A stretch of 64,000 nt of DNA from Bacteroidaceae bacterium (GTDB lineage: Bacteria > Bacteroidota > Bacteroidia > Bacteroidales > Bacteroidaceae): NCBI GenBank assembly GCA_017938245.1, contig JAGBBX010000024.1, positions 111,050-175,049 of the forward strand, in the 5' to 3' direction. This document shows, piece by piece, positions 2,577 through 52,096 of this stretch. The position numbers and the translations under genes are program-made. How positions within the stretch are numbered: position 1 is the first letter of the stretch; each line of letters begins with the position of its first letter. A model generated the notes under the pieces. It ran no database searches. It saw only the letters and a program-made list of their open reading frames with translations, and had not been told where the DNA came from.

Positions 2577-2634
2577 CTTGTCGTACTTTGCTATTAGGTT
2601 TGTAAAAATATAAAATCTTTACGAAAAAAACAAA

Positions 2635-3588
2635 TCAAGCATTCATTATAAGATAAACCGTATATGCAATATAAACAGTTACAAGCAACAGACCCTCGAT
2701 TCGTGTAATTACAGCCTTACCGCCGAATTTTGTTACCATATATATGAGCAACGACGAGAAGAGAAGGACATAAAAATCGATAGGACTGAATCCGGCAAGA
2801 CTGATTGGTGTAATTGTTGCACTACATCCCAATATAAAGAATATATTCAGAATATTACTTCCAAGCACATTGCCCAACGCAATACCTACATTACCTTTTC
2901 GCGCAGCATTCACCGATACTGCAAGCTCGGGCAGTGAGCTTCCTGCCGATACTATTGTAATACCGATGACAGCCTCGGATAGTCCGCACATACGGGCAAT
3001 TTCGGTTGCTCCATCCACAAACAGATTACCACCGAGAATGAGCCCTGCAAGACCACCTACGATAAATATAAGAGCTTTACCCAATGTAATAGGCACATCG
3101 CCCTCACCATCCTCGCCTTCATTTGTTATAGAGAAGGTATAGCGTATAAATATCATAAGAAAACAGAGCAGCAGTAATCCTCCGTTCCGAGTTATAAAAC
3201 CACCATCGGCCTCGCCATAAAGAATATTTCCCGATACAAGGATAAGTGCCACCGTTGCCAGCAGATTAAAAGGAATCTCACGAGTCAGCATCTTTGCACT
3301 GAAGAAAATAGGCGTTATAAGAGCTGTTGTTCCCAAGATAAACATTCCATTGAAGATATTGCTACCTATAACATTTCCCAAAGAAATGCCGGCACTACCT
3401 TTCAAAGATGCGCTAAGGCTGATTACAAGTTCGGGGAGCGAGGTGCCTAATGCCACAATGGTAAGTCCGATTACCAACTCACTGATACCGAAGCGACGTG
3501 CAATACCCGAGGCACCTTTTGTAAGCCAATCAGCGCCAAGGATAACAAGCACTATTCCTATAACAAAATAAACAATCGAAAGTATCAT
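2635..3588 (-). CDS. Calcium/sodium antiporter (CaCA family, YrbG-like)
   Basis: A 317-residue inner-membrane cation exchanger, expected to swap Ca2+ for Na+ (or K+). The two alpha repeats typical of the CaCA superfamily are both visible: ALGTSLPELVISLSAS with GNVIGSNIFN in the N-terminal half, and SAGSSLPELAVSVNAA with GNVLGSNILN in the C-terminal half. The acidic residue in each SLPEL motif is the usual cation ligand. About ten hydrophobic segments span the protein, and a central loop near residues 150-165 is rich in acidic residues. It starts at the ATG at 3586-3588, just downstream of a hairpin that separates it from the next upstream gene. Confidence 0.88.
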   Translation of the reverse strand: MILSIVYFVIGIVLVILGADWLTKGASGIARRFGISELVIGLTIVALGTSLPELVISLSASLKGSAGISLGNVIGSNIFNGMFILGTTALITPIFFSAKMLTREIPFNLLATVALILVSGNILYGEADGGFITRNGGLLLLCFLMIFIRYTFSITNEGEDGEGDVPITLGKALIFIVGGLAGLILGGNLFVDGATEIARMCGLSEAVIGITIVSAGSSLPELAVSVNAARKGNVGIALGNVLGSNILNIFFILGCSATITPISLAGFSPIDFYVLLFSSLLIYMVTKFGGKAVITRIEGLLLVTVYIAYTVYLIMNA

Positions 3589-3606
3589 TATATCGTTTTT
3601 TAAGCT

Positions 3607-3642
3607 CCTCGGCCTTACAGGGATATTCCAATAAGGCCGAGG
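3607..3642 (-). terminator. Hairpin terminator after the 771-residue secreted protein gene
   Basis: An 11-bp perfect stem (3607-3617 with 3632-3642) with a 14-base loop lies 13 bases past the stop of the minus-strand gene that ends at 3655. There is no clean U-tract after it, so it may be a weak terminator or an mRNA-stabilising hairpin. Confidence 0.5.
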
Positions 3643-3654
3643 TTGTTATATAAT

Positions 3655-5970
3655 TTATTTTACCAGAACTTTCTTTCCACCGATAATATAGATTCCGGGA
3701 GATACGATGCGTTCAATTCTGCGTCCTGTAAGATCGAAGATTACAGATACATCACTCTGACTATTTACATACTCAATATTTGTTGTTCCGTCGTCGAAAC
3801 GCAGGCTTGCAGAGTTCTGCGCTGCAACAGGAAGCGCGCTCAATGGCAGATAGGCCTTGTTTGCATTATTAAGGAACTTGCCATCGCTCATTTTTGCCTT
3901 GTAGAACCCAACGCTGCCATCAATAATTCCAAGAACATAAGCCTCCTCTTCGACCATCGTTTCTTTTACACTTCCCGTTAGCATATTATTCGAGAAATCG
4001 GCAGTGGCATTGCTGCTTGTCAAGTAGAAGAGATGCTCGCCTTCGCCTTTGAGGACAAGTCCTGTACTATCAGGAACAACACCCTCGACCTGTGTCAGAG
4101 ATACATAAGACTCTTTCGCATCTGTTACAATATATGCCTCTACTGTAGAAGGAATCAGAGTTTTATGTCCCAAATAGAGTGTAGAGTAACCTGCCGCAGA
4201 AACGTTATGATACATACCGGTGCCGTTGACTTTGGTATTCTTAAGACCTGCCACACCAAAATATTTCATCAATGTTGCAGTAAGAACAACTCTCTTTTTA
4301 AGATTGTTGGGACAATCCTGAAGATTTAACGCGCCACGAACACCGTTATCGGGCAACTGAACAACAAGACACTTTGTATAATCGGTCTCATCGGCATCGT
4401 CGGCAATCAATATGTTCGAGGTTACAATCTCTCCCGATGCCGAGAATACACAATTAGCACCATCGGTTCCCAAATTAGTTCCACCAACATAACCTACAAT
4501 GTAGCCTGTTATTACCGCGGGAATCTCCTCGCCGTCGACATAACATTCGAGAGCATCGGCAACCGAACCCTCGACCGACGGAGCTACTTTTTTGTATATT
4601 GCTGTTGCCACATCACTCTCGACACCATCGACTACTGCAATAGCCTTCACTGTGGTTGTTTCATCGAGTATTATTGCCGAAGAGTATGGGGTACTCTCGG
4701 CTGTGGGTTCGCTGCCATCTAAAGTGTAGTAGATAACACCCTCGACAGCAGAAATTTCCAAGCTCATTGTAGGATAGAACTTGTTACCACCTGCTACGCT
4801 GAATGTAGGCGCTGCGGGCTTCGCCTGCTCCTCACCTGTAGAGAAAGTAACGGTTAATGCATCCAAACGAACCTGCCCCCCACTCAAACTTGCTATTGTA
4901 AATGTAGTGCTTGCAGGGGTTATATTCACCGTAACCTTATCGCCCGAAGCCGAAGCTGCGTTTCCGATGGAGTTTGCCAATGCTGTTGCATAGTCTTCAG
5001 AGCTACAATCGAACTCTATTTTAGAGATTGCACGTGCCACCTCAATTGTTATGCTCGAGCCCTTATAACATCTTGCGGGATTTGCGTAATCGGCAACATC
5101 ATTAGTAGAAGAGCCCTTGTCATTGGTAAATGTTATACCATTCTGTGCCCACACCTGCTGCGATGTGCTATACGAAGCACGCTGAGCTTTATCGGCAAAA
5201 GATAACGTTGCCGAAGTAGCCTCGGGGTCTACAGCTGCATTTTTTGTATATTTAGCCTCTACAATATCGCTTTGGTTACCCTCGGCATCCTGTGCATAGG
5301 CATATACAGTTGTAGTCTCTGTGATGACAATTGCAGCGATATATTTGCTATAGTTCTCGCCATCGGTCGAGTAATATATATCATCGTCGGCATTTATTGT
5401 AACAGTGAGATTCTCTTCAAAAATTGTTCCGTCGGCAGGCGAAAAGGTAGGTTCAACAACATCGACAGGCTCGGGAGTCTCACCACCTGCACCACCATCG
5501 GGCGTATATGTAACTGTTATCGACTTAATGTATATTGCTTTTGAAGATGTCTGAGTATAAGAAAAGAGAATTTCTCCCGAAGCCGAACCCTGAAAGGTAT
5601 ACTCAGTTGCTGTTGTTGTGAGGCTTATTGCGTCACCAAATTGTGTTCCACCGACAGAAACGGCAAGATTTGCATTTACCGAGCTTGCGCCCGATGTATT
5701 AACAACAATCTTGGTAATTCTGCCCTCGATGCCCGATGTCGAAAGTGTCAAACTCTTGTAAGGCTTACTACCCGAACCTAATTGTTGCCCTTTTGTTCCA
5801 TCGTAGCCCCAATAGCCACCATTACCTGCCAAAGTCCAATCGACACCGTTTAGTGTTTGCGTTCCGTTTGCCGAGAACTGTTTAGCGGTAAAAGTATAAG
5901 TATACTCCTCGGCGTGCAGGCCAAAAAACACCAGCATTGAGCATAGGATAGATAAAAATATCTTTTTCAT
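3655..5970 (-). CDS. Secreted multi-module protein with chitobiase/HEX C-terminal-type repeats and sorting tail
   Basis: A 771-residue exported protein with signal peptide MKKIFLSILCSMLVFFGLHA. In order, I see a beta-sandwich-like module (about 22-155), a chitobiase/beta-hexosaminidase C-terminal-like repeat (about 165-240, with IYYSTDGENY), a second sandwich module (about 250-375), a second such repeat (about 385-465, with IYYTLDGSEPT), and a DUF6359/OB-like region (about 470-580). It ends in a short tail, FDLTGRRIERIVSPGIYII, of the type used for surface sorting in Bacteroidota. No catalytic module is recognisable. It is therefore probably a surface carbohydrate-binding or adhesion protein; that role is inferred from module types only. 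Confidence 0.7.
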   Translation of the reverse strand: MKKIFLSILCSMLVFFGLHAEEYTYTFTAKQFSANGTQTLNGVDWTLAGNGGYWGYDGTKGQQLGSGSKPYKSLTLSTSGIEGRITKIVVNTSGASSVNANLAVSVGGTQFGDAISLTTTATEYTFQGSASGEILFSYTQTSSKAIYIKSITVTYTPDGGAGGETPEPVDVVEPTFSPADGTIFEENLTVTINADDDIYYSTDGENYSKYIAAIVITETTTVYAYAQDAEGNQSDIVEAKYTKNAAVDPEATSATLSFADKAQRASYSTSQQVWAQNGITFTNDKGSSTNDVADYANPARCYKGSSITIEVARAISKIEFDCSSEDYATALANSIGNAASASGDKVTVNITPASTTFTIASLSGGQVRLDALTVTFSTGEEQAKPAAPTFSVAGGNKFYPTMSLEISAVEGVIYYTLDGSEPTAESTPYSSAIILDETTTVKAIAVVDGVESDVATAIYKKVAPSVEGSVADALECYVDGEEIPAVITGYIVGYVGGTNLGTDGANCVFSASGEIVTSNILIADDADETDYTKCLVVQLPDNGVRGALNLQDCPNNLKKRVVLTATLMKYFGVAGLKNTKVNGTGMYHNVSAAGYSTLYLGHKTLIPSTVEAYIVTDAKESYVSLTQVEGVVPDSTGLVLKGEGEHLFYLTSSNATADFSNNMLTGSVKETMVEEEAYVLGIIDGSVGFYKAKMSDGKFLNNANKAYLPLSALPVAAQNSASLRFDDGTTNIEYVNSQSDVSVIFDLTGRRIERIVSPGIYIIGGKKVLVK

Positions 5971-6001
5971 TGTTTCTTTTGTTTGTGTGTTTTGTTTTTA
6001 G

Positions 6002-6583
6002 TTATAGCATATTCTGTTTTTTCATCTCCTCGGCTACGGTAAGCAGTTCATTGTACCACTCCTTGCCGAATCTTTCGATAAGCGGTTCTTTAAGAAACTC
6101 GTACGCACGGATTCCTTTGCGTCGTCCTGCCACCTGTGCAGTGCGACACACGTCCCACTTATGAAAATTCACTGCGGTGAGGTCGCCCACTTTACTAAGG
6201 CGCGCAGGATAAAGATAGCAAGATATTGGTTTACGCCACGCAGTGCGACCTTCGTTATAAGCCTTCTCGATGAGACAGATACAACAACCATTCTCGTCGC
6301 GCGAAGCAAAGACACAATCCTTGCCATTCACTATAGAGGTCACAAGGTCGCCGTCGCGGTCGCAATATACCACACCCTGTTCTTCGACTACAGCACGAGC
6401 CTCGGTGGTCATCTCGCTTTCAACTATTGGCAAAGCCTCTTCGAGTTTCTCTACCTCGTCCATTGCAACGGGAGCGCCTGCATCACCCTCGACACAGCAT
6501 ATACCCTTACAATGAGAGGGGTTACAACAGAAATATTCCTGAAACATTGCGAACGAAACTATCGCGTCGCCTATCTGTACCAT
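6002..6583 (-). CDS. DUF3109 family cysteine-rich protein
   Basis: A 193-residue cytosolic protein of the DUF3109 family, common in Bacteroidota and of unknown function. Its hallmark is a set of conserved cysteines: CCNPSHCKGICC near residues 19-30, CVFASRDENGCCIC near 90-104, and SCYLYPAR near 120. The pattern resembles the Fe-S or zinc cluster arrangement of the YkgJ-like CxxCxxCC group, so metal binding is plausible. It ends about 30 bases upstream of the adhesin-like gene start and could be co-transcribed with it. Confidence 0.8.
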   Translation of the reverse strand: MVQIGDAIVSFAMFQEYFCCNPSHCKGICCVEGDAGAPVAMDEVEKLEEALPIVESEMTTEARAVVEEQGVVYCDRDGDLVTSIVNGKDCVFASRDENGCCICLIEKAYNEGRTAWRKPISCYLYPARLSKVGDLTAVNFHKWDVCRTAQVAGRRKGIRAYEFLKEPLIERFGKEWYNELLTVAEEMKKQNML

Positions 6584-6728
6584 AAAGTTTTTAATTACTT
6601 ATTTATAGGCAGTTAAACCACCTTGAATAGATTACTGTATCACTTTTCTTAGAAACTGTTTAAATTTATATCATTATTTTTTTATAAATCAAAAATTAAG
6701 CAGTTTTTTATTGTTTCCAAGTATCGGC

Positions 6729-6764
6729 AAGAGGATGCACCGATTTTTGTCGGTGCATCCTCTT
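6729..6764 (-). terminator. Terminator downstream of gpmI
   Basis: A perfect 15-bp inverted repeat (6729-6743 with 6750-6764) with a 6-base loop stands between the end of gpmI (6803) and the next gene. This is the expected place for the gpmI transcript to stop. No long U-run follows on the minus strand. Confidence 0.65.
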
Positions 6765-6802
6765 TGGTTTATCAAAGTCTATCTTATTCTATTTCTATGA
6801 AA

Positions 6803-8302
6803 TCAGATGAGGCAGTTTCCTGTCATATCAGTGGGAGTCTCAAGACCCATAATCTTAAGAATTGTGGGAGCAACATCGGCAAGGATACCATCCTTGATGG
6901 TTGCCTCTTTATTCTCGGTTACATATACGCAGGGTACAGGATTCAACGAGTGAGCTGTATTGGGCGAACCGTCGGCATTAACTGCGTTGTCGGCATTTCC
7001 GTGGTCGGCAATGATGATTGACTCGTATCCGTGCGACTTAGCAGCCTCGATAACATCCTTAAGACAAGCGTCAACAGCTGTAACAGCCTTCTCGATAGCG
7101 CTGTAGATACCTGTGTGACCAACCATATCGCCGTTAGCAAAGTTTACAACGATAAAATCGTATTTCTCGCTGTCTATCTCGGCAACGAGTTTATCCTTTA
7201 CCTCGTATGCGCTCATCTCGGGCTGCAAGTCGTATGTTGCCACCTTGGGTGAGGGAACAAGGATGCGCTCCTCGCCATCGTAAGGAGTCTCGCGACCACC
7301 GTTGAAGAAGAATGTCACGTGTGCATACTTCTCGGTCTCGGCAATGTGCAACTGCTTCAAACCCTGCTTAGATACATACTCGCCAAGAGTATTCTCGACA
7401 TTCTCTTTATCGAACAAGATGTAAACACCTTTGAAGTTTGCATCGTAGGGAGTCATACAGTAGTATTGCAAGCCGGGGATTGTATGCATACCTGCCTCGG
7501 GCATATCCTGCTGTGTAAGAACAACGGTAAGCTCCTTTGCGCGGTCGTTACGATAGTTGAAGAAGATGACAGCATCGCCCTCGCCAATGCGTCCGTCCAT
7601 TGTGCTGTTTACGATAGGCTTAACAAACTCGTCGGTAATGCCCTCGGCATACGACTCGTTCATTGCTGCAACCATATTATCGGCTTTCTTGCCCTCGCCA
7701 CTAACCAACAGGTCGTAAGCAATCTTTACGCGCTCCCAACGTTTGTCGCGATCCATTGCATAGTAACGGCCGATGATGGTAGCAATATTCATATTCTTAT
7801 CGGTGAGCTGTTGAATGAAGCCTGCACCGCTCTTGGGGTCGGTGTCACGACCATCCATAAAGCAGTGTACGTATGTCTCTTTTACGCCTGCCTCAACTGC
7901 CATATTGTAGATTGCCTCGAGGTGTTCCAAAGAACTGTGAACACCACCATCCGAAGCAAGACCCATAAAGTGCAGTTTCTTGCCATTTGTCTTTGCATAC
8001 TCTACGGCTGCCACCAACTGAGGATTCTGTTTGATTGAACCATCGGCTATTGCACGGTTAATCTTCAAGAGGTCCTGATAAACGACTCTACCGCCACCGA
8101 TGTTAAGGTGACCAACCTCGCTATTACCCATCTGACCTGCAGGCAGACCGACATTTTCGCCACTCGCCTGAAGCTGAGAATTGGGATAGTTGCTTACCAA
8201 ATAGTCCCAATAAGGAGTGGGAGTACTGAAAATAACATCACCTTTACTATGGTTGCCAATACCCCAACCATCCAAAATTACCAAAAGTGCTTTCTTGCTC
8301 AT
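6803..8302 (-). CDS. gpmI: 2,3-bisphosphoglycerate-independent phosphoglycerate mutase
   Basis: Glycolytic and gluconeogenic enzyme interconverting 3- and 2-phosphoglycerate, Mn2+-dependent, alkaline-phosphatase superfamily, cytosolic. At 499 residues it matches the usual length of about 510. Metal-site and catalytic motifs are visible: [10 protein letters not shown] at the N-terminus (Asp11), the phosphoserine nucleophile Ser61 in QMGNSEVGH, the substrate segment [11 protein letters not shown] near 145, NYRNDRA near 250, and the C-terminal metal motifs [12 protein letters not shown] and [10 protein letters not shown]. It starts at the ATG at 8300-8302 and is flanked by its own terminator, so it is probably monocistronic. 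Confidence 0.97.
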
Positions 8303-8346
8303 AAAGTTTATATTTAATAATTATCATCTTTCTAAAAAAACACCTG

Positions 8347-8354
8347 CGAAGATA
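8347..8354 (-). promoter_or_regulatory. Possible -7 box for gpmI
   Basis: On the minus strand this reads TATCTTCG, one base from the Bacteroidota -7 consensus TAnnTTTG, about 45 bases upstream of the gpmI start. The same variant precedes the tRNA-Leu and the TonB receptor. No good -33 TTTG was found. Confidence 0.35.
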
Positions 8355-8470
8355 GTGCAAATATTCGAATTATTGCGGCAGTACGATAAAAAAACGGGCG
8401 TCATTATTTAATTTATGCTAAATAGCGTAGTTTTTTAGCAAAAAGCACTGCCCTCCTCTTAAAAAAACAC

Positions 8471-8478
8471 TATTTTTG
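8471..8478 (+). promoter_or_regulatory. -7 promoter box for the Nudix-TPR operon
   Basis: TATTTTTG matches the Bacteroidota -7 consensus TAnnTTTG, 17 bases before the ATG of the Nudix gene. That implies a very short leader. No matching -33 element was found at the expected distance. Confidence 0.4.
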
Positions 8479-8494
8479 CCGATTATTTTAAACG

Positions 8495-9040
8495 ATGACT
8501 ATGGAGCACCCGTTACATCTTTTCAAATTTTGTCCGCGATGCGGAAGCGCTCATTTTAAAGTAAACGACTTTAAGTCGAAGCGATGCGACGATTGTGGAT
8601 TTGTATTCTATTTTAACCCACTATCGGCCACCGTAGCACTTATACTCGACAGCAACAACCGACTATTGGTGGCACGTCGTGCCAAAGAGCCTGCAAAAGG
8701 GACACTCGACCTGCCTGGAGGCTTTGCCGATAGTTTCGAAACCGCCGAGGAGGGTGTGGCACGCGAGGTAAAGGAGGAGACGGGACTCACTGTAGTATCG
8801 ACCGAGTATCTCTTCTCGCTTCCCAACATTTACATCTACTCGGGATTCGAGGAGCACACACTCGACCTCTTTTTCCTTTGTCGTGTAGAGGAGAGCAAAG
8901 AACTTTCTGCAGCCGACGATGTCGATGCGCTACAGTGGATTCCCATAGATGAGATTGAGCCCGAGAAGTTCGGATTGCAATCGATAAGCAAGGGAGTAGC
9001 GAGATTCAAGAATATGACAATGAAAAATATAAAACCATAA
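8495..9040 (+). CDS. Nudix hydrolase with N-terminal zinc ribbon
   Basis: A 181-residue cytosolic protein. Residues about 10-35 form a zinc ribbon (CPRCG ... CDDCG), as in the NADH pyrophosphatase/NudC-like group. The Nudix fold follows with an intact Nudix box: GGFADSFETAEEGVAREV continuing into KEETGL, which retains the REVKEE metal-binding core. It should hydrolyse a nucleoside diphosphate linked to another moiety, but the substrate cannot be read from sequence. The stop is followed after one base by the ATG of the TPR gene, so the two are co-translated. Confidence 0.87.
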   Translation: MTMEHPLHLFKFCPRCGSAHFKVNDFKSKRCDDCGFVFYFNPLSATVALILDSNNRLLVARRAKEPAKGTLDLPGGFADSFETAEEGVAREVKEETGLTVVSTEYLFSLPNIYIYSGFEEHTLDLFFLCRVEESKELSAADDVDALQWIPIDEIEPEKFGLQSISKGVARFKNMTMKNIKP

Positions 9041-9041
9041 T

Positions 9042-12000
9042 ATGAAGAAAAAAATAGCCATTCTAATGCTTGCCTGTCTTGGAATAGCCGCACAGGCACA
9101 AAACACAATCTCGAGCAACAATAACGGTTGGTTGCTGAAAGAGAGCAGCCGACTGATTGACGAGAAGGAGTATCCCACCACACTGACTCTGCTCTCGCGC
9201 ATAGAGCGCACTACGCTCAATGCCATCGAGCGTCAAGAGGCCGACTATATGCGTGCAATAGCCACTTTCGAGACAAACAGCCTCGAAGGACGTGCCCTTA
9301 TGCTGCAATATCTTGCCGACTACCCCGAGAGTGCAAAGAAAGATATTCTATCGGCATTCATTGGCGAGTCTTATTACTACTCACGTAATTTCGAGCAGGC
9401 ATTCACTTGGTTCAAGAACTGCGACCGCGACCGTCTGGAGCCCAAAGAGAGAGAACGTGTTCAGCTGCACTATGCACTCACCCTGCAGGAATTTGGCGAA
9501 GCGCAAAACGCAGTCAACCTGCTTAATGCAATAAAAGTAAACGGAAAATTCTACCGCAGCGACGCTATTTTCCACCTTGCCGCCATCGACTATTATAACG
9601 AGCAGCTCGACCGTGCTTACGAGGAATTCAAATCAATTGAGATGGACGACAAATACTATCTCGACATTCCCTATTACCTTGCCGGAATCTACCTGAAGAA
9701 AGGAGAGAATGTTCGTGCCGAAAAACTCGCCAACCTTTTTTTGCAATATAACAGCGAGCTGAAACAAGGAACACCTATGCGCCATATTCTTGGAGCATCG
9801 CTCTACGCTCAAGGACGTTACAGCGAAGCAATAGCCCCCTTACAGGAGTATGTGCAACAATGTAATGAGCCTCAACGCATTGCCTGCTATCAGTTGGCAA
9901 TGAGCCTTTTCAATACAGGGAAATACAACGAGGCGATACCTTTGTTCGACCGATGCACCAACGACGATGATGCAATAACACAAAATGCCTATCTGCATCT
10001 GGGTATTATAGAGACCAAGCTCAATGACATAGCAAAAGCACGTCTCTCATTCGAACAGGCTGCAGCTATGAATCACGACAGTAAGATACGCGAAGAGGCA
10101 CTTTACAACTACGCTCTTTGCATACACCAGACACGCTACTCCCCCTTCGCCGAGAGCGTGAAGGTTTTTGAGCGCTTCCTTAACGAGTACCCAGACTCGC
10201 CCCACGTATCACAGGTCGAGAGCTATCTTGTCGAAGTTTATATGAATACACGCAACTACGACGTAGCCCTACAATCGATTGAGAAAATCAAACACCCCTC
10301 GGGCGAGATTCTAGGAGCAAAACAAAATATTCTCTACCGTCTGGGTGTTCAGTCGTTCATCGACAATAATATGCACGCTGCTATAGAGTATATGAACCGT
10401 TCATTGGCTCTTTCGCGCTACAGTCGAAACACACACAGCGACGCCCTCTATTGGCGAGGCGAGTCGTACTACCGCTTAGAGAACTATCAGGCAGCATCAA
10501 AAGACTATAAAGCAACCATCGCACTATCACAGAGAAACGCGGGCAATGCGTTATACGGTCTGGCATACACCGAGTTCCAACAAGAGGATTATGATAAGGC
10601 TGCCGAAACATTCGGACGTTTCTTGCAGAGTGCAACCACCTCCAAGGCCGAACAGCGCGCCGATGCCTATAACCGTTTAGGTGACTGTTATTTCTACAAT
10701 CGCGACTACACAAAAGCCGACCGGTTCTATCAAAAGGCAGCCGAAACCGACCGTTCACATAGCGACTATGCCCTCTATCGCTCGGCTATAACACAAGGCC
10801 TCTCAAAGGATTATGCCGCAAAAATAAAGACTCTGAGCAATCTTATAGAGAATTATCCCGGCAGCAACTACACCGAGCAGGCTTTCTACGAGATAGGTCG
10901 TTCGCACGTTGCACTTGACAACAATACACAAGCCGTAAAGACATTTACCGAACTCATAAAGCGCTACCCCGAAAGTTCTCTTGCACGCCGTGCCGCTGCC
11001 GAGAGAGCAATCATATATAATCAGAATGGTGAACAGGAGAAAGCTATTGCAGCCTATAAGCAGATTATTGAAAAATATCCCCACAGCGAAGAGGCACGTA
11101 TGGCCATACAAGACCTAAAGAACCTATATATAGAGAAAGGCAACATTAGAGAGTTCACCGAGTTTGCAGCATCGGCTCCCGGAATGAAAGCCGTTGAGAG
11201 CAACGAGCGAGATACCCTCACATATGCCGCAGCCGAGCGCATCTACAGCCGTCAGCGTTACAACGATGCACGCAAGGCCTTCAACGATTACATAGCCGAG
11301 TTCCCCGAAGGTTCATTCCTCCTCGATAGCCACTACTATCTTGGAGTAATATACTACAACGATAAGGCCACAAAAGAGGCTCTGAAACATTTCGAACAAG
11401 TGATACTCTTCCCCGACAACAAATATAGCGAGGACGCAATGGCTCTTGCTTCGGACATTCACTACCGCGCACAACGTTACGACCGTGCTATGGAACTATA
11501 TAAGCAACTTGTAACAAAGACAAGCAACGAGGAACGTCGTCGCGCCTGCCGTATGAATATGATGCGCTGCGCAACAGCCCTCAGCCTCGACAGTGAGGCA
11601 ATAGCAGCGGCAAGCGAATTGCTGAGTGCAGGCAATCTGTCGCCCGAATGGGAGCGCGAGGCACTGCACACACGCGCCAAAGCACAGCTTGCTCTGAACA
11701 ACGGGAAAGAGGCTGTTGCCGACCTTACCAAACTCGCCGCTGACACACGCAGCAAACAGGGTGCCGAAGCAAAATATCTGTTGGCACAGTATCTCTTCGA
11801 CAACAAGCAGTACGATAAGTGCGAAAAAGAGATTCTAAGCTACATCGAATCGAGCACTCCTCACGCCTACTGGTTAGCACGCAGTTTCGTGCTTCTCTCC
11901 GACCTTTATATGGCACAAGGACGCAATATGGAGGCCAAACAATACCTGCTGACGCTACAGAACAACTACAGCGACAATGACGATATTGCATCACGCATCA

Positions 12001-12047
12001 AAGAGCGTCTCCAAAAATTAACAACCGACAAAGAGACAGCAAAGTAA
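9042..12047 (+). CDS. Large exported tetratricopeptide-repeat protein
   Basis: A 1001-residue protein with signal peptide MKKKIAILMLACLGIAAQAQ. The rest is almost entirely alpha-helical repeats of TPR/Sel1-like type, recognisable from repeated motifs such as YNRLGDCYFYNRDYTKADRF, ALYNYALCIHQ and AFYEIGRSHVALDNNTQAVK. It is probably a periplasmic or outer-membrane-associated scaffold. It is followed by an outer-membrane barrel gene after 43 bases, so the two may form an envelope complex. Similar TPR/barrel pairs occur next to topA in other Bacteroidales, though the function is not established. No enzymatic domain is visible. Confidence 0.8.
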   Translation: MKKKIAILMLACLGIAAQAQNTISSNNNGWLLKESSRLIDEKEYPTTLTLLSRIERTTLNAIERQEADYMRAIATFETNSLEGRALMLQYLADYPESAKKDILSAFIGESYYYSRNFEQAFTWFKNCDRDRLEPKERERVQLHYALTLQEFGEAQNAVNLLNAIKVNGKFYRSDAIFHLAAIDYYNEQLDRAYEEFKSIEMDDKYYLDIPYYLAGIYLKKGENVRAEKLANLFLQYNSELKQGTPMRHILGASLYAQGRYSEAIAPLQEYVQQCNEPQRIACYQLAMSLFNTGKYNEAIPLFDRCTNDDDAITQNAYLHLGIIETKLNDIAKARLSFEQAAAMNHDSKIREEALYNYALCIHQTRYSPFAESVKVFERFLNEYPDSPHVSQVESYLVEVYMNTRNYDVALQSIEKIKHPSGEILGAKQNILYRLGVQSFIDNNMHAAIEYMNRSLALSRYSRNTHSDALYWRGESYYRLENYQAASKDYKATIALSQRNAGNALYGLAYTEFQQEDYDKAAETFGRFLQSATTSKAEQRADAYNRLGDCYFYNRDYTKADRFYQKAAETDRSHSDYALYRSAITQGLSKDYAAKIKTLSNLIENYPGSNYTEQAFYEIGRSHVALDNNTQAVKTFTELIKRYPESSLARRAAAERAIIYNQNGEQEKAIAAYKQIIEKYPHSEEARMAIQDLKNLYIEKGNIREFTEFAASAPGMKAVESNERDTLTYAAAERIYSRQRYNDARKAFNDYIAEFPEGSFLLDSHYYLGVIYYNDKATKEALKHFEQVILFPDNKYSEDAMALASDIHYRAQRYDRAMELYKQLVTKTSNEERRRACRMNMMRCATALSLDSEAIAAASELLSAGNLSPEWEREALHTRAKAQLALNNGKEAVADLTKLAADTRSKQGAEAKYLLAQYLFDNKQYDKCEKEILSYIESSTPHAYWLARSFVLLSDLYMAQGRNMEAKQYLLTLQNNYSDNDDIASRIKERLQKLTTDKETAK

Positions 12048-12090
12048 GCAGCAGCCTATTACCAAACTAATAGTTTAAGAAAGATTAAAG

Positions 12091-13767
12091 ATGAAAAGAT
12101 ACACTATATTATCGGCAATTATGCTTGCCGCAAGCAACCTGTTTGCACAGAACGATACAATAGGAGCAGTAATTCAGGTAGAGAACAATTATGCGCCTGT
12201 GGTAGTCAAAGCCACTAAAATGGGATTTACACCGCAGATTGAGATTGCATCCGACCACGCTCCCCTGAACCTTATATTTTCCCAAAAAGGCGAGCCGTTC
12301 AAACGTTTCGTATCGCAACGCAATGTAAAGGATGTTCTTCCCACACAGGAGATGTGCCTGCCCGGATACGCCCGTTTAGGATACGGCACAGGCAACAATT
12401 TAGACCTTAAGGCCGCCTACCGATTTTCCTTTGGCAAACGCGACAGACTGACACTATTTGCATCAATGGATGGATATAACACCGACATCGATTACAACGA
12501 TGAAGAGTGGCGTTCACGTTTCTACACAACAGAGATTAATGCCGACTACACACACAATTTCGACAATCTCACTTTAGGAGTAGAGGCCGATATTAAAAAC
12601 AGCGTATTCAATTATATGCAGCCTATATTCTATGCCAACAATCTAAGAATGCCCGAGACAACAGACAAGCAGAACTGCGGCTATTACGCTCTTCTGCTAA
12701 AGGCTGCATCGAATACAATGGGAGCACTTTCGTACAAAGCATACGCAGGATTCACAATTAACAATCGCAAATATAGCGCGTCCATTGCCGAAAACATTGG
12801 CGAGACCCGACTGCGCGCGGGCGGCACAGTGCGTTACGAGCTTGCCCACGAGAATCTCCACAATCTTGGTGCAAACATCGACATTGACGGATTTATACAT
12901 AACAGCGCACTAAAGCCGGAGGATGGTCCCGGAATACACGACAGATACAGCGACTATGCCCTCATTCGTTTGAATCCTTTCGGCAACCTGCGTTTCGGCG
13001 AGTGGAAAGGACGACTCGGAATACACGCCGACCTTGTAACCGCCAACAGTCCCTTCCTTGCCGTTGCTCCCGACATCAGAATAGAAGGCCCGTTGGCCCA
13101 GGGTATTTCACTGTATGCAGCTGCGACAGGTGGTCGTAAAGCTGCCTCTTTCGAGACACTGGATATCCTCTCGCCCTATTGGAACTATATTCCCGGAGTA
13201 AAGCAGCCCGCAACTGTGTATAATCTATGCGATATCTCAGCAGGAGTACGCACCACGATAGGAGCGCTATACACAAACATCTATGCAGGATTCTCGTACA
13301 CTATCGACGACCTTATGCCCACTGCCGATGCCAAGACATCAATTTTATACACAAAGTTCATTCAAGACAACTCGCGTGACATTTATATAGGCATTGATGC
13401 CGGATACGACTTTGGCGGCATAGTGAACGTAGAGGGCAATATTCGTTACGACCGTTGGGGATGTAGCGATAACGACGACCTGCTTATGTATAAGCCTATG
13501 CTCACAGCAGGAATAAAGGCACGCGCACGAATAATAGAGGGACTATATGCCAACGTCGGATACACCTTCACCGGCTACACAAGTGGCAACGACGACCTTA
13601 AGATAGAAGACAAGAGCTATTTAGAGGCAAGAATAAGTTACCGCCTGCACAAACAGTTGAATCTATTCTTGCAAGGCAACAACCTACTGGACTGCGAGTA
13701 CGAATTGTATCCCGGATGCCTTGCACAGGGAGCAAATGCGATGGTTGGAGCAAGTATCAACTTTTAA
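12091..13767 (+). CDS. Outer-membrane beta-barrel protein, TonB-receptor-like without plug
   Basis: A 558-residue protein with signal peptide MKRYTILSAIMLAASNLFAQ. The body alternates polar and aromatic residues throughout, as in outer-membrane barrels, and ends in Phe (MVGASINF). The last 60 residues (LNLFLQGNNLLDCEYELYPG) resemble the final strands of TonB-dependent receptors. No plug domain or TonB box is visible and it is shorter than a true receptor. It follows the TPR gene closely, so the two probably act together at the outer membrane. The substrate is unknown. Confidence 0.75.
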   Translation: MKRYTILSAIMLAASNLFAQNDTIGAVIQVENNYAPVVVKATKMGFTPQIEIASDHAPLNLIFSQKGEPFKRFVSQRNVKDVLPTQEMCLPGYARLGYGTGNNLDLKAAYRFSFGKRDRLTLFASMDGYNTDIDYNDEEWRSRFYTTEINADYTHNFDNLTLGVEADIKNSVFNYMQPIFYANNLRMPETTDKQNCGYYALLLKAASNTMGALSYKAYAGFTINNRKYSASIAENIGETRLRAGGTVRYELAHENLHNLGANIDIDGFIHNSALKPEDGPGIHDRYSDYALIRLNPFGNLRFGEWKGRLGIHADLVTANSPFLAVAPDIRIEGPLAQGISLYAAATGGRKAASFETLDILSPYWNYIPGVKQPATVYNLCDISAGVRTTIGALYTNIYAGFSYTIDDLMPTADAKTSILYTKFIQDNSRDIYIGIDAGYDFGGIVNVEGNIRYDRWGCSDNDDLLMYKPMLTAGIKARARIIEGLYANVGYTFTGYTSGNDDLKIEDKSYLEARISYRLHKQLNLFLQGNNLLDCEYELYPGCLAQGANAMVGASINF

Positions 13768-20462: not shown

Positions 20463-23400
20463 ATGAAACTTAAAGCACTAACCTTTTTCGCACTTTTTTG
20501 TACACTGTTTAGTGTAGGTGCGAACGCACAACAGCCCGACTACTATGTAGCGCACGGTGCCGACGTAAAGATTACGCACTCGACCCACTACCCAAAGGCT
20601 GTAGGTATAGTAGGCACACAGAGCGAGCAGCAGATACTCGAAGGGATTGCTTCGGCACCCGGCTGCGCAGCCTACTTCGACAAGACATCTACAACATTCG
20701 ACGTTAAGTCGGGCGATGTGGTAACTCCTCTCATAACCATCAATGGCGAATGGATGCACGGTTACGTTTATGTCGATTGGGACAACAGCAAGCAGTTCGA
20801 TGTAAAACTCGAAGGAACAGGCCCTTACACACAGGGCGAGGGTAACGAGCTTATGTGCTGGTCGCTCTACGGACACAACACCGATGGTGACAGCGGTTGG
20901 AACAGCGACGGTACACGCCTTAATAGCGGCAATGTTCTTGCTCCTGGTTCGTTCAAAGTACCCGAGGGGCTTGCCGAGGGCTCTACCTATCGTATGCGTT
21001 ACAAGGTAGAGTGGAACAGCATCGACCCCGCAGGCGAGGGCGATAAGTTTATCACCGACGGTGGTTCCATAATAGACGTAACACTTAGAATTTCGGGCAC
21101 AGCCGAGGAGGTTGAACCCGAGGGCTACCCCATCGACGACTACAACGAGCCTCGCGTGGGAACAAAGCCCGATGCAGCCGAGTGGAGCATAATCCCCGAT
21201 GGTCTGAACGCATCGTGGGCATCGCGCGACGTACACTACTCGCTTCACAAAGTGCCCCAGCTGACACAGAAAGACGAGGCAACTATCTATGCTTGGAAGG
21301 GAGAGCGCGCCAACATACAAGCTATTCTCTACAGCAAGAGCGATGAGGGAACACTCAGCGTACGTATGAGCGAATGGAAGAAGAACGGCACTGCAACAGG
21401 CATCAAGGATGCCGGCGAGGCACGCTTCGTAAACTACGTTATCACCGACGACTATGACGCTTGCGGTAACCATCCTATGACACTTCCCACCTGGCTTGTA
21501 GCCGATGTTATTGACCAGGATAAGCCCCACGCAGTGCCCGCAATGGAGACACGTCCCGTATGGTGCACAATAGAGGTACCTCGCGATGCCGAGACAGGAC
21601 AATATACCAGCGAGCTTCAGATTGTGAACGAGGCCGGCGATGTTGTAAAGAGCCTTACACTGAATATAAACGTCGACAGCCACGCACTGCCCACCGTTGC
21701 CGAGCAGAAATTCCACCTCGATTTCTGGCAGCAGCCCTATGCTGTGAGCCGTTACTACGGTGTTGAGCGTTGGAGCAAAGAGCACCTCGATGCTCTGCGT
21801 CCTTATCTCGAGGCACTCGGTCGCGCAGGACAGCGCACCGTATCGGCAATAATGTTCTACGAGCCTTGGGGCGAGCAAACACACGAACCCGACCGTTTCG
21901 AGCCTATGGTTCAGACAACAAAGAAGAGCGATGGCTCTTGGGCATACGACTACACCATATTCGACAAATATGTTGAACTTTGCGCCGAGTATGGCATAGA
22001 CAAGCAGATTAACTGTTTCAGTATGGTACCCTGGGATATGAGTTTCCGCTACTTCGATGAGGCAAGCAACAGCTATAAATATATCACCACAAGCACAAGC
22101 ACAGCACAATACCGCGAGCTGTGGACAAATTTCTTAAAGGCATTTAAGAGCCACTTGCAGCAGAAAGGCTGGTTCGAAAAGACCAACATCGCAATGGACG
22201 AGCGTGCCGAGAGCGATATGCTCAACGCCTATAACATAGCCAACTCAATAGGCTTCAAGATGGCATTGGCAGGTAACTACCACTCGTCACTAAGCGACAA
22301 ATTGCAGGATTTCTGCGTGGCATTGGGACAGGACAAACTCTTTACCGCTGCACAGATGGCCGACCGCAAGGCGAAGAACCGTATCACTACATTCTATACA
22401 AGTTGTGCCGACAGCGAGCCCAACATCTACACCAACTCCTACCCTGCCGAGGCAGCCTATCTGCCTATCTATGCAGCAGCAAATAACCTCGACGGCTATC
22501 TGCATTGGGCGTGGATAAACTGGGACGAGCATCCTCTCACCGACAGCCGCTACCGCAAGTTCGGTTCGGGCGACACATACTGCTACTACCCCGGTAACCG
22601 TTCAAGCGTACGTTTCGAGCGTCTCATCGAGGGTATCCATCAGTACGAGAAGGTACAGATTCTGCGTGAGGAGTATAAGAACAACAGCGAGAAAATCGCA
22701 GCACTCAACGCCCTTCTCAACCGTTTCACAAGCAGCGCCGTTGCAGGCGAGCAGTGTGCCGCTTGGGTTAACGACCTTGAGGCATTCCTTAACGGTCAGG
22801 AGGTAGAGATTCCCGTTGCAAAGGATGTAAAGACCGGATACTATCACCTTGTAAGCAAGGCAACATCACGTAACGAGCATCTCTACAACAACGCACTACT
22901 CAGCGGAAACGGATTGCGTTTCACACTGCAGGCAAACGAGATTATACCCACCAACAACGGTATATGGCACGTTACCGTAAACGAGGGCAGCAGCAAGATT
23001 GGTATCAAGAACGGCGACGGTAATCCTCTGGTGGCAGGAACCAATTGGGGCGGCTCAATCGCAGGCAGCTACAAAGAGCTCACAGTAGGTTCTACAGTAG
23101 ATGTCGGCGAGTTCCGCTATTACTTCTTCAGCGAGGCTATCAACTGCACCAACGGCGGTGCCAATTTCAAGGTTGGCGGTGTCGACTTTGTCACTACCTG
23201 GACCGATGGTGCTACAGCCGACGACAATATGTGGCGTTTCGAGGCTGTTGACGTCGAGGGCGCCAACATCTACAATGTGGTAATAGAGGGAGAGCACGAC
23301 GCCTACGTGACATACACACACGATGGCACAAGCGAATACGCCTTTAATGGTGGATTCTTCATCACTCCCAATAAGATTGCAGCCGAAAACCTTAAAGTTG

Positions 23401-25496
23401 CCATTGTCGATAATACCATTAACGGTGCCGACATCACTGTTAAGGATGGAACTATCACAATCAGCAATATCAAGGCAGCCGCAGCGCCCAAGAAGCAAGA
23501 CCTCTTTAACACCAGCAACGGCGACGGTGTTATTCCTCCCTATCGTATTCCGGGTATCACAACAGCAAGCAATGGTCGACTTATAGCAGCAGCTGCACGC
23601 CTTGTGTGTGGAACCGACCCCGGCTACGGACAGGTTGACGTTGTATGCCGCATAAGCGACGATAATGGCGAGAACTGGAGCGATATGATTGACGTTGCTG
23701 TTGGTACAGGACGTACATCGGCCACAAAGAACTATTTCGACACTGCATTTGGCGACCCGGCAATAGTTGCCGACCGCACAAGTGACGAGGTTATTATCCT
23801 TGCTGTAGCAGGATGTACCGTATACGGTAATTCAAACACCACACGCAAGAACCCCAACCTCATCGGCATCATACGCAGTAAGGACAATGGCGAGACTTGG
23901 GAGAAGCCCATCGATATTACCGAGAGCATCTACAGCCTATTCGACAAAGGTAATCCCATCCAAGCTGCATTTGTCGGTGGAGGTAAGATATTCCAGAGCC
24001 GTCTGATAAAGAAAGACAAATACTACCGCATTTACGCAGCCCTGTGTGCACGTCCCAATGGAAACCGCGTTGTATACTCCGATGACTTTGGTGCTACCTG
24101 GCACGCTCTTGGTGGAGCCTCGGCACTTCCTGCAACAGGTGGTGACGAGCCCAAATGCGAGGAACTTCCCGATGGCCGCGTTATCCTTTCGAGCCGCGTA
24201 GGTGGTGGACGCATCTATAACATCTACACCTACAGCAACGCTCTCGAGGGCGAGGGTAGCTGGGAGAGCGCTGTCAAGAGCAGCTTCGACGGAGCAGGAC
24301 ACACACCCGGTGGCAACTCGACCAACGGCGAGATTCTCATTGTTCCCGTTGTTCGCAACAGCGACAGCAAAGAGATGTATCTTGCACTGCAGTCGCTCCC
24401 CACAGGTAGCGGACGTACCAACGTAGGTATCTACTACAAAGAGCTTACCGAAGTCGACGACATTGCCAAGACATCGTACTTTGCAACAGGCTGGAACGGA
24501 TATTTCGAGGTGAGCAAGACCTCATCGGCATACAGTTCAATGGACCTTCAGGCCGACAACAGAATTGGTTTTATCTATGAGGAGACACTCACAGGATTCG
24601 GCAAGCGCAACAACCCCGTATCGACAAGTTTCCCAACCGGTGCCGGACAACACAACTTCGACGGCTTCGACAACATTTACGTTGCCTACGAGCTTGAGTA
24701 TATCACAGGCGGTGCCTACAGCATAAAGAGAGACGTTGACCGTCGTGCCTATTTGCAGAGCTATTTTAGCGAAATAGTAAAGAGCGCCGAAGTATCGGAG
24801 GAGCAGAAAGCAATCGTCAACGAGGCTGTCAATGCCCTCAGCGCCGACCCCACCACCGAAGAGATTGACTACATCTACTATCTTCTTGCAGGAGGCGGAG
24901 CACCCGATAAATGGGACGGCAAAGTGGTAACACTCACTAACGTTCAGAAGAGTGGCAAGGAGTATGCACTTTATATCGATGATAACAGCACACTCAACAT
25001 CAGCTCAAAATCGGCAGCTGAACTTAGCAATGCGGCAAAATTCCTTTGCAAGAAAGAGAATAGTGGTAAATACAGCCTCTATAACAAAGAGAAACAGTTG
25101 TATGCCATCTGGCGCGCAGGCAAGAACTACGGTTACAATAACAACAGCGGTACCCTTGCCGAGTATAATGCCACCTACTGCGACTGGAGCTTCAACGACG
25201 GCAGCACCTCTATCGACAACACCTACTACATTGTCAACAAAAGAAGCGACGGTACCACCGACGGTTCTATCATAATTATGGCAGCAGGCACATTCGATGC
25301 GTGGTCCAACTCTGTAGGTCTCAGCGACAACTACAGTAACCTTTTCCGCATCGACATTGTAGAGGATGGAACAGGTATTGCCGATGTAACAGTCGAGAAT
25401 GGCAATAATGTTATTTACGACCTTCAGGGACGCAAGGTTCAGCAACCCGGTAAAGGAATTTATATCGTAAATGGCAAAAAGGTAATGATTAGATAA
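20463..25496 (+). CDS. Secreted GH123-GH33 fusion (beta-N-acetylgalactosaminidase-type module plus sialidase)
   Basis: A 1677-residue exported protein with a signal peptide (1-22). In order: a GEVED-like beta-sandwich (about 25-215); GH123 N-terminal and catalytic regions (about 235-790) with the Asp579-Glu580 pair in NIAMDERAES that fits the GH123 substrate-assisted catalytic pair; a linker/lectin-like region (about 800-1000); and a GH33 sialidase (about 1010-1430). The sialidase has the YRIP motif at 1027 and three Asp-boxes at about 1065 (SDDNGENW), 1139 (SKDNGETW) and 1206 (SDDFGATW). A C-terminal sandwich is followed by the tail YDLQGRKVQQPGKGIYIV. Expected action is release of sialic acid and beta-GalNAc from host glycans at the cell surface. 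Both family calls are mine from motifs; bifunctionality is inferred. Confidence 0.82.
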   Translation: MKLKALTFFALFCTLFSVGANAQQPDYYVAHGADVKITHSTHYPKAVGIVGTQSEQQILEGIASAPGCAAYFDKTSTTFDVKSGDVVTPLITINGEWMHGYVYVDWDNSKQFDVKLEGTGPYTQGEGNELMCWSLYGHNTDGDSGWNSDGTRLNSGNVLAPGSFKVPEGLAEGSTYRMRYKVEWNSIDPAGEGDKFITDGGSIIDVTLRISGTAEEVEPEGYPIDDYNEPRVGTKPDAAEWSIIPDGLNASWASRDVHYSLHKVPQLTQKDEATIYAWKGERANIQAILYSKSDEGTLSVRMSEWKKNGTATGIKDAGEARFVNYVITDDYDACGNHPMTLPTWLVADVIDQDKPHAVPAMETRPVWCTIEVPRDAETGQYTSELQIVNEAGDVVKSLTLNINVDSHALPTVAEQKFHLDFWQQPYAVSRYYGVERWSKEHLDALRPYLEALGRAGQRTVSAIMFYEPWGEQTHEPDRFEPMVQTTKKSDGSWAYDYTIFDKYVELCAEYGIDKQINCFSMVPWDMSFRYFDEASNSYKYITTSTSTAQYRELWTNFLKAFKSHLQQKGWFEKTNIAMDERAESDMLNAYNIANSIGFKMALAGNYHSSLSDKLQDFCVALGQDKLFTAAQMADRKAKNRITTFYTSCADSEPNIYTNSYPAEAAYLPIYAAANNLDGYLHWAWINWDEHPLTDSRYRKFGSGDTYCYYPGNRSSVRFERLIEGIHQYEKVQILREEYKNNSEKIAALNALLNRFTSSAVAGEQCAAWVNDLEAFLNGQEVEIPVAKDVKTGYYHLVSKATSRNEHLYNNALLSGNGLRFTLQANEIIPTNNGIWHVTVNEGSSKIGIKNGDGNPLVAGTNWGGSIAGSYKELTVGSTVDVGEFRYYFFSEAINCTNGGANFKVGGVDFVTTWTDGATADDNMWRFEAVDVEGANIYNVVIEGEHDAYVTYTHDGTSEYAFNGGFFITPNKIAAENLKVAIVDNTINGADITVKDGTITISNIKAAAAPKKQDLFNTSNGDGVIPPYRIPGITTASNGRLIAAAARLVCGTDPGYGQVDVVCRISDDNGENWSDMIDVAVGTGRTSATKNYFDTAFGDPAIVADRTSDEVIILAVAGCTVYGNSNTTRKNPNLIGIIRSKDNGETWEKPIDITESIYSLFDKGNPIQAAFVGGGKIFQSRLIKKDKYYRIYAALCARPNGNRVVYSDDFGATWHALGGASALPATGGDEPKCEELPDGRVILSSRVGGGRIYNIYTYSNALEGEGSWESAVKSSFDGAGHTPGGNSTNGEILIVPVVRNSDSKEMYLALQSLPTGSGRTNVGIYYKELTEVDDIAKTSYFATGWNGYFEVSKTSSAYSSMDLQADNRIGFIYEETLTGFGKRNNPVSTSFPTGAGQHNFDGFDNIYVAYELEYITGGAYSIKRDVDRRAYLQSYFSEIVKSAEVSEEQKAIVNEAVNALSADPTTEEIDYIYYLLAGGGAPDKWDGKVVTLTNVQKSGKEYALYIDDNSTLNISSKSAAELSNAAKFLCKKENSGKYSLYNKEKQLYAIWRAGKNYGYNNNSGTLAEYNATYCDWSFNDGSTSIDNTYYIVNKRSDGTTDGSIIIMAAGTFDAWSNSVGLSDNYSNLFRIDIVEDGTGIADVTVENGNNVIYDLQGRKVQQPGKGIYIVNGKKVMIR

Positions 25497-50434: not shown

Positions 50435-52096
50435 TTACATCTTATTCAATCCGTTGCGGAAGCCATTGACCATTTTGGCACTCTCCTTAGAGATTTTTGT
50501 AAGGTCGATGCTCTTAAGCAGTTTTTCGAGCTTTGCAACGCGACTGTTATTGCCTTTTGCCTTAGCCTCGTCCATAAGAATCTTATATTTCTCGAACTGC
50601 TGGATACCCTGTACCATACGCTCCCAACGTACCGAACTTATGCTGAAGGGGTAGACAATATATGTATCACCTGCGGGCCAAGAGATAAAGCGAGAGTCCT
50701 TCTCGGCATCCTCTGTCCAGCTGTTATATGCCCAACGCAAATAGCCATCAAGGTCTTTAGCAAGAGCCTCAAGAGCAATAAACTCGGCATCGGCGGGGGC
50801 GGTAAATGTAAAGACATTGGGATACTCGGCCGAGCAACAGGTGTAATAGGTGCTTATCTTACCCTCGGCACGACGGCGTGCAAGAAGCTCGGGAGTATAG
50901 GCCTTGTAAGCCTCAATGTCGAGGCAGTAGTCGGTAATGTCGGCCTCAATCTCGGGGTGATAGTTACCTGCCATTGAGATTTTCATTCCGGGAGCATACT
51001 CCTTAATTACCTTAATGGCAGCCTGCATCTGCTGGAGGCTGCGCTCATCCATAGAGATAAAGGTCTTGTCGAACCAGCCTTTCTCTTTAAGGTGTGCTGC
51101 GAAAGCCTTCAACATTCCACCCCAAAACTCGCTGTAAGCCTTCTCACCCGGAGCACATTTCATCTCCTTGTGACTGTCGGTAGCCTGGTCGTAGTAGCGG
51201 AACGCAAGACGCCAGGGAATCATCGAGAAGCAGGTAATCTCCTTGTCGATGCCGCAATCCATCATAAACTCAACCCAACGGTCGAACACGGTAAAGTCGT
51301 ACCACCAAGAGCCATCGGCCTTGCGTACCCACGTTACCATACTGCCAAAGGGGTCGAAAGTCTGTCCGTTCCAGGGCTTGTGTGTAAGGGTAGCTGTGAT
51401 GACCTTCTGACCGCCGGCTGCCAATTTCTCCATATAGGGGCGGAGAAGCTCGAAATGCTTTTCCGACCACGGTTCTACATTGTGAACACGTGCCACTGCG
51501 TATGGATTCTGCCAGAAATCGAGATGGAAACGCCACTCCGTAGGCGCAGGAAGTGTGCGGTTTAGCACCTTTACACTATAGCTGTTCTTCAGAGTCTTTC
51601 CGTTGGCCGTAACAGTTACACTACCTGTATAGGTTCCGGGCTTAACAGCCTGAGGAACCTCTACTGTGAGCCACAATCCGCGAGATGTGTTTGCTGCGAG
51701 AAGTGTGGTATCCTCGCAGGTGATGCGGTCGGCCGAGAGGTTCTCGCCGTAAGCATCTACAGCGTGGCGTCCGCAACCCGTGAAACGGTCGGTGATAACC
51801 GGCTGAACAAAGCCACCCACCACATTGGAGGCCGGGATAACATTCTTACCACATTTAAGGTCGCTGAACGAGTATGTCACCTGAGCATCCTCGCCTGCAT
51901 TGCTCACAAGAAGCTGGAAGTTGACACGCTCACCGCGCCACGCAGCGGTGCTGTTTACTCCTGTTGTCTTAATCTCGGCTCCCGCCTCAACCGGGTAACG
52001 TGTATCGGTGTTACCCCACTTTGCCTTCACCTGTGCCGAAAGCGGCATTGCAATCACGGCAAAAGCCATTGCCGCAAAAAAATGTCGTAGTTTCAT
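50435..52096 (-). CDS. GH123-family glycoside hydrolase (beta-N-acetylgalactosaminidase type)
   Basis: A 553-residue exported enzyme with signal peptide MKLRHFFAAMAFAVIAMPLSAQ. A GH123 N-terminal beta-sandwich (about 25-180) precedes the catalytic domain (about 185-530). The catalytic-type pair is Asp350-Glu351 in FISMDERSLQ. The sequence is clearly paralogous to residues about 235-790 of the large fusion at 20463: both share FHLDFWQ-PYAV, DGSW-YDFTVFD, FSMIPW and the MDER motif. Family members cleave beta-linked GalNAc from glycolipids or mucin-type chains by substrate-assisted catalysis. It lies 28 bases after the sialate O-acetylesterase gene and is co-transcribed with it. Confidence 0.85.
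   Translation of the reverse strand: MKLRHFFAAMAFAVIAMPLSAQVKAKWGNTDTRYPVEAGAEIKTTGVNSTAAWRGERVNFQLLVSNAGEDAQVTYSFSDLKCGKNVIPASNVVGGFVQPVITDRFTGCGRHAVDAYGENLSADRITCEDTTLLAANTSRGLWLTVEVPQAVKPGTYTGSVTVTANGKTLKNSYSVKVLNRTLPAPTEWRFHLDFWQNPYAVARVHNVEPWSEKHFELLRPYMEKLAAGGQKVITATLTHKPWNGQTFDPFGSMVTWVRKADGSWWYDFTVFDRWVEFMMDCGIDKEITCFSMIPWRLAFRYYDQATDSHKEMKCAPGEKAYSEFWGGMLKAFAAHLKEKGWFDKTFISMDERSLQQMQAAIKVIKEYAPGMKISMAGNYHPEIEADITDYCLDIEAYKAYTPELLARRRAEGKISTYYTCCSAEYPNVFTFTAPADAEFIALEALAKDLDGYLRWAYNSWTEDAEKDSRFISWPAGDTYIVYPFSISSVRWERMVQGIQQFEKYKILMDEAKAKGNNSRVAKLEKLLKSIDLTKISKESAKMVNGFRNGLNKM

Follow-up and report, generated by a model that had tools for sequence, protein, structure and literature searches.

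A Bacteroidaceae GH123–GH33 fusion protein that probably acts on Sda/GM2-type glycans

A 64,000-nucleotide stretch of DNA from a Bacteroidaceae bacterium (assembly GCA_017938245.1, contig JAGBBX010000024.1, positions 111,050–175,049, forward strand; here called the window) carries at 20463..25496 (+) a gene that joins a glycoside hydrolase family 123 (GH123) unit to a GH33 sialidase in one polypeptide of 1677 residues, predicted to be secreted. Judged from its sequence it is SiaBb3-like, having GH123 and GH33 in the same order as the Bifidobacterium bifidum enzyme SiaBb3, on one chain and with both active sites intact. We consider it probable that this is a secreted bifunctional exo-glycosidase, stripping both branches of a single galactose in termini of the Sda/GM2 type. 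The fusion adds a branch to an established idea, since a similar pairing has already been shown in a human-gut Bifidobacterium. The novelty lies in the Bacteroidota branch, with many copies from metagenome-assembled genomes (MAGs) of the ruminant hindgut, a type IX-like tail and a β-trefoil between the catalytic domains. Also new are fusions in a second bacterial family, a GH123–GH33 protein with an unrelated GH33, apparent losses of GH33, and GH33 and GH123 genes that adjoin without being fused in a Prevotella jejuni gene run of the nag type.

Domain organisation of the fusion protein

The gene runs from ATG to stop over 1677 codons with no internal stops, as the first-pass annotation of this DNA had described. 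That annotation had named an assembly error joining two genes as something that would refute its reading. Halves in separate frames do occur in one genome (G067), and many relatives lie on fragmented MAG contigs. However, a single frame spans both domains in separate assemblies, comprising 24 of the 44 genomes in the genus, the genomes G134, G291 and G524, and 26 of the best 80 loci from a collection of named genomes, and a chance or assembly join is therefore rejected as having a negligible probability. Opposite the first third of the gene lies an antisense open frame of 543 residues (20478–22109, −), which is probably an effect of composition.

Searches of Pfam and NCBIfam agree with both domain calls of the first-pass annotation. 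The GH123 unit (residues 241–780, 21183..22802) consists of an N-terminal domain (Glyco_hydro_123_N_2, residues 252–387, E 3.6e-34) and a catalytic domain (GH123_cat, PF13320, residues 422–734, E 2.7e-96, 323.2 bits against a cut-off of 23.1). The Asp-Glu pair noticed earlier at 579–580 (22197–22202) is confirmed, within a MDER motif starting at 578, and this position is D-E in each of the 105 GH123 rows of the alignment, 29 of them fused and 76 not. The predicted fold matches solved GH123 enzymes across essentially the whole domain. The closest structure is BvGH123 (PDB 5l7r, 5l7u, 5l7v), which differs from the fusion in having no sialidase domain.

The GH33 domain (residues ~1005–1420, 23475..24722) is matched by BNR_2 (residues 1039–1258, E 5.5e-8) and by the TDE0471 neuraminidase equivalog model NF052328 (residues 985–1380, E 1.7e-82). 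The latter match, at 277.9 bits, lies below the equivalog cut-off of 900; the Treponema denticola sialidase TDE_0471 (PDB 10qf, 10qi) differs from the fusion in having a single catalytic domain. The YRIP motif is at 1027, where it had been reported. As for the three Asp-boxes described earlier, box-like motifs are indeed present at 1065, 1139 and 1206, but only two fit the strict pattern, the first being degenerate (SDDNGENW).

The fold matches solved sialidases across essentially the whole domain, and the arginine triad (R1028, R1245, R1318), the aspartate acid/base (D1052) and the Tyr-Glu pair (Y1357, E1229) are all present; these roles are presumed from alignment to solved sialidases. Counted along the alignments, D1052 corresponds to D165 in TDE_0471, which is the position altered by mutation in the structure with 3′-sialyllactose, 10qi. 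All six residues are invariant across the fused type-A rows (28 of 28), and L032, a further GH123–GH33 protein described below, has them too (L numbers denote loci and G numbers genomes). The catalytic residues examined are thus intact, their loss having been another of the refuting conditions named at first pass. The spacing from Glu to Tyr is 128 in all 28 fused type-A domains and in 18 of 31 unfused type-A domains, against 97–117 in 12 of type B.

The remainder of the protein is made up of accessory modules. A hydrophobic leader, read directly from the sequence, forms a probable signal peptide (residues ~1–23, 20463..20531). It is followed by an N-terminal module (residues 24–235, 20532..21167) with a weak match to GEVED (E 1.2e-4, under the Pfam cut-off), and stretches related to this module recur in further secreted proteins that the genome encodes, another sialidase included. 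Between the catalytic domains lies a β-trefoil of the ricin-B-like lectin fold (residues ~786–930, 22818..23252), and after it a small β-rich stretch (~935–1003, 23265..23471), recognised from the secondary structure of the models, leads into the sialidase. The large model had a predicted template modelling score (pTM) of 0.62, and how the two catalytic domains sit relative to each other in it was disregarded; the middle part was folded alone. The C-terminal module (residues 1421–1640, 24723..25382) is confined, among the loci searched, to these fusions and to pieces of the broken G067 copy. Profile searches of the N-terminal, middle and C-terminal modules against PDB sequences gave a best E of only 0.13.

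The C-terminal tail (25383..25493) resembles a sorting signal for type IX secretion. Further long frames encoded in the genome share it: 19 match rows, of which an inverted duplicate contributes two, begin at or after residue 1580. The genome also encodes a PorV-family component of the type IX secretion system. None of the Pfam sorting-tail models scored on the protein. We regard the tail as a putative type IX signal. At one locus (L184, contig C59 of G000, 126000–139000), two GH33-type frames of 1855 residues with the same match pattern (1467–7034, +, and 7111–12678, −) lie inverted and 76 bases apart, which reflects either a true inverted duplication or a palindrome created in assembly.

Relation to described enzymes

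The first-pass annotation knew of no described enzyme with this pairing. That view has since been overtaken: as published in December 2025 in the Journal of Biological Chemistry, SiaBb3 of the human-gut species B. bifidum has GH123 followed by GH33 in one polypeptide (PMC12856340), and the pairing is therefore not new. According to the available text of that paper, SiaBb3 turns GM2 into lactosylceramide and also clears Sda from mucin, removing N-acetylneuraminic acid (Neu5Ac) first and then N-acetylgalactosamine (GalNAc), and in a mutant with inactive GH33 the GalNAc stays in place (PMC12856340).

A second protein, Allo_01388 of Allobaculum mucolyticum, was listed in 2021 as 'GH123,GH33', with 1765 residues and a signal peptide (PMC8409761, Table 1). 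It has the same pair of domains, and is known by annotation, its domain order being that of the table. These two were the only GH123–GH33 proteins found in the retrieved text of the open-licence PMC literature, with subscription papers and preprints outside the scope of the search.

The likeness to SiaBb3 as published is considerable. The proteins are similar in size (1677 residues here, 1753 in SiaBb3), both are secreted, and both have the order GH123 then GH33 and a D-E pair in GH123. Three Asp-boxes are reported in SiaBb3, and three box-like motifs are present here. The spacing of 128 from Glu to Tyr is also the same, taking the SiaBb3 value from the published residue numbers alone (E1430 and Y1558), and this suggests that the two GH33 domains may be of the same subtype.

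There are also differences. SiaBb3 carries a sortase motif and a membrane span, whereas the fusion has a type IX-like tail; its interdomain region is 471 residues according to the paper, compared with ~224; and it is an Actinomycetota protein of demonstrated activity, while the fusion is from Bacteroidota and its activity is predicted.

Other gut enzymes provide a further comparison. In Akkermansia, GH33 enzymes and the GH20 Amuc_1924 are described as taking sialic acid and GalNAc off Sda (PMC11790493). This is a separate route, unlike the fusion in that the enzymes are separate and the GH20 tolerates the branching sialic acid (PMC11790493). In one published table BT_2751 of Bacteroides thetaiotaomicron is assigned to GH123 and labelled 'Neuraminidase like protein' (PMC12834350).

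Distribution and descent

In addition to the 24 genomes of the genus with one frame across both domains, five have pieces or variants: two frames in G067, pieces in G955, G951 and G930, and a copy without GH33 in G959. In the remaining 15 of the 44, which are MAGs of varying completeness, matches to the fusion were limited to single-domain proteins. In G067 (L031, contig C32, 4513–9527) the frame is broken near YRIP, and the GH123 and sialidase pieces are in separate frames.

In a sample of the family, at least 7 of 151 genomes, G067 aside, contain a fused frame of this clade (up to three candidates being scored per genome). In a sample of the order, GH123 was found in 55 of 393 genomes, and long frames in two of them that belong to another family, G291 and G524, are fusions. 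These are 72% identical to the window fusion over residues 241–1425, slightly under most copies from the same genus, which suggests that the fusion may have been transferred between bacterial families. The G524 copy (L036, contig C92, 3593–9535) is broken within the N-terminal module. Further long GH123 frames fetched from that sample, in G013, G178, G385, G314, G258 and G317, gave no GH33 match; the G013 protein (L034, 5587–9492) has 1301 residues and carries GH123 at the C-terminal end. A sample of the phylum, 395 genomes with up to two candidates scored in each, showed both domains at E 1e-30 only in the window's own genome. On plasmids, tblastn matched 19 records, and in none of them did a single location span 80% of the query; 66 pattern matches on viral contigs yielded no confirmed relatives.

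The scan of named genomes gave at least 575 confirmed relatives, of which the best 80 loci were analysed. The 26 fused loci among them are labelled Bacteroidaceae, Bacteroidales, Prevotellaceae or Candidatus Physcousia. Where a gut site is given, ruminant cecum, colon or rectum is the origin of 18 of 18 fused loci, compared with 6 of the 13 unfused loci (Fisher p 0.0007). The other 49 of the 80 had no such label and were excluded, one fused locus from horse feces among them. The rows of the test are phylogenetically non-independent, two of the 18 fused loci share one MAG, and four of the six unfused hindgut rows lie inside the fusion clade or are cut copies of its members.

In the GH33 tree, a single clade unites all 28 fused type-A domains with the G067 piece (support of 98 in the approximate likelihood ratio test, SH-aLRT), and a more careful tree of 54 rows recovers the same fused clade (bootstrap/SH-aLRT 100/99). 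Its first branch is L071, a minimal protein of 1020 residues with GH123 and GH33 back to back. In the GH123 tree the fusion clade comprises 37 rows (SH-aLRT 100).

The GH123–GH33 protein of 1300 residues at L032 (6698–10600, G026) behaves differently in the two trees. Its GH33 belongs to a far clade, and grouping it with the fusion clade on GH33 is rejected (approximately unbiased test, AU, p 4.8e-41); placing it in the fusion clade on GH123 is not rejected (p 0.199). L032 would therefore be either an independent fusion or an old fusion in which GH33 has been swapped.

Two members of the GH123 clade, L063 (733–3870) and L064 (2928–6101), retain the N-terminal module, GH123, the trefoil and a sorting-type tail, with GH33 and the C-terminal module absent. 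As they lie apart in the GH123 tree with the other modules kept, they are read as apparent separate losses of GH33. At least seven changes between the fused and unfused states are needed on a quick GH123 tree, which by itself cannot separate gain from loss.

A different arrangement is found in P. jejuni DSM 26989 (L109, 3689–10735) and two further genomes, where unfused GH33 and GH123 genes adjoin. An MFS-type transporter and two NagB-like genes come first in the run, GH33 and GH123 lie downstream of them, and the opposite strand carries a fucosidase-related gene, the names of the neighbours having been assigned by reading the sequences. Here the GH123 frame, of 468–477 residues, is short at the N-terminal end, and the L109 copy starts without a visible signal peptide. 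A quick GH33 tree joined these Prevotella GH33 domains to the fused ones with a support of 19, and the careful 54-row tree does not join them.

Thirteen proteins of the window were sought in the fetched loci, with flanks of up to 8 kb and less on some contigs. The sole match beside a fused copy was a topoisomerase-type protein in L071 (178.5 bits), too weak to indicate a shared gene order. A second, unfused GH33-type gene adjoins the fusion gene in L054, L061 and L065, and in L071 lies on the other strand.

Proposed function and its alternatives

The first-pass annotation had inferred that the fusion acts on Sda/GM2. By analogy with SiaBb3, which has the same domain order and has been shown to act there, this reading is plausible and well supported, and is the best supported of the functions considered. 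The target would be termini of the type GalNAc-β1,4-(Neu5Ac or Neu5Gc-α2,3)-Gal (Neu5Gc, N-glycolylneuraminic acid), present in Sda on gut mucin or glycolipid and in GM2. By the same analogy GH33 would act first, using the Tyr1357/Glu1229 pair, Asp1052 as acid/base and the arginine triad. GH123 would then remove the exposed β-GalNAc by substrate assistance through Asp579-Glu580. The β-trefoil and the end modules probably anchor the enzyme on the glycan or the cell surface, and the tail would send it out by type IX secretion. It is of relevance that GH33 and GH123 have been united by differing routes, namely in the fusion clade, in L032 with its unrelated GH33, and as neighbours of the P. jejuni type.

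The freed sialic acid could be used through a gene pair elsewhere in the genome, a NanA/DHDPS-family lyase gene directly followed by a GlcNAc-2-epimerase-family gene. The window itself contains a second group of genes that appear to be directed at host glycans: a GH29 fucosidase (43590–44909), a stand-alone GH123 of 553 residues (50435..52096, −; 38% identical to that of the fusion), and an adjoining protein with GDSL and SASA domains, of the sialate O-acetylesterase type (52125–54305). Together with the lyase and epimerase genes, the pattern looks like that of a host-glycan feeder.

Several observations weigh against a function dedicated to Sda/GM2. Members of GH123 vary in specificity, some acting on GA2, others on Gb4, and some releasing whole oligosaccharides, and which of these applies is not readable from sequence. 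Seven members of the GH123 fusion clade (L063, L064, L072, L073, L074, L076 and L087) have no GH33, so GH123 has been retained without it. Unfused adjacency is rare: among the 51 loci L072–L122, GH33 was found in the fetched flanks of L109 only. SiaBb3 itself is reported to prefer 6′-sialyllactose about 20-fold over 3′-sialyllactose (PMC12856340), and is therefore not an Sda-only enzyme. As regards the host, it speaks for the proposed function that Sda gangliosides with NeuAc and NeuGc are described in the small and large intestine of moose, and the same acid glycolipids in fallow deer small intestine (PMC4515253). However, the moose evidence concerns glycolipid, not mucin, and the acid glycolipids given for bovine small intestine in the available text include GM2, with Sda unlisted (PMC4515253). 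A sheep atlas and a calf transcriptome, consulted for the host's Sda gene, B4GALNT2, do not enter into this evidence on the substrate.

Another explanation is that the two domains target different glycans, as a general sialidase and a GalNAc-ase for the globoside or ganglio series, tethered just for joint delivery to the mucus surface. This would fit the apparent repeated loss of GH33 with GH123 kept, the preference of SiaBb3 for the 6′ linkage, the other sialidase-type frames and the second GH123 in the genome, and the N-terminal module common to other secreted proteins. On the other hand, the same pairing is published for B. bifidum and Allobaculum, L032 has it with an unrelated GH33, and a joint substrate has been demonstrated for SiaBb3, so that we regard separate targets as unlikely, if worth keeping in mind.

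It has also to be considered that the sialidase unmasks ganglio-series glycolipids (GM2 and GM1-type) of shed epithelial cells, from whose asialo product GH123 would free GalNAc or Gal-GalNAc, mucin not being the substrate. GM2 and GM1 gangliosides are reported in bovine small intestine (PMC4515253), and oligosaccharide-releasing relatives of GH123 exist (8k2f, 8k2g). But the closest structure, BvGH123, lies outside the oligosaccharide-releasing groups, and SiaBb3 is stated to be inactive on GM1, with the data not shown in the paper (PMC12856340); we consider this a very improbable account.

The proposed action on Sda/GM2 may be extended, speculatively and with a good deal of doubt, to suppose that several phyla have assembled an Sda-stripping enzyme repeatedly, using unrelated GH33 clades. 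In the version from grazing animals the interdomain lectin would hold the de-sialylated intermediate and so couple two cuts of enforced order, Sda with Neu5Gc included. Natural variants are at hand with which the contribution of tethering and of the lectin-like domain could be examined: the minimal L071; L065, L067, L068 and L069, which have no trefoil; L063 and L064; and L032.

If the proposed function is correct, dedicated stripping of Sda/GM2 recurs across gut bacteria, possibly built repeatedly, and is not peculiar to one human Bifidobacterium. Sda would then be marked out as a nutrient worth a special enzyme, which would help to explain how B4GALNT2, the gene behind Sda in the host, exerts its influence on the microbiota.
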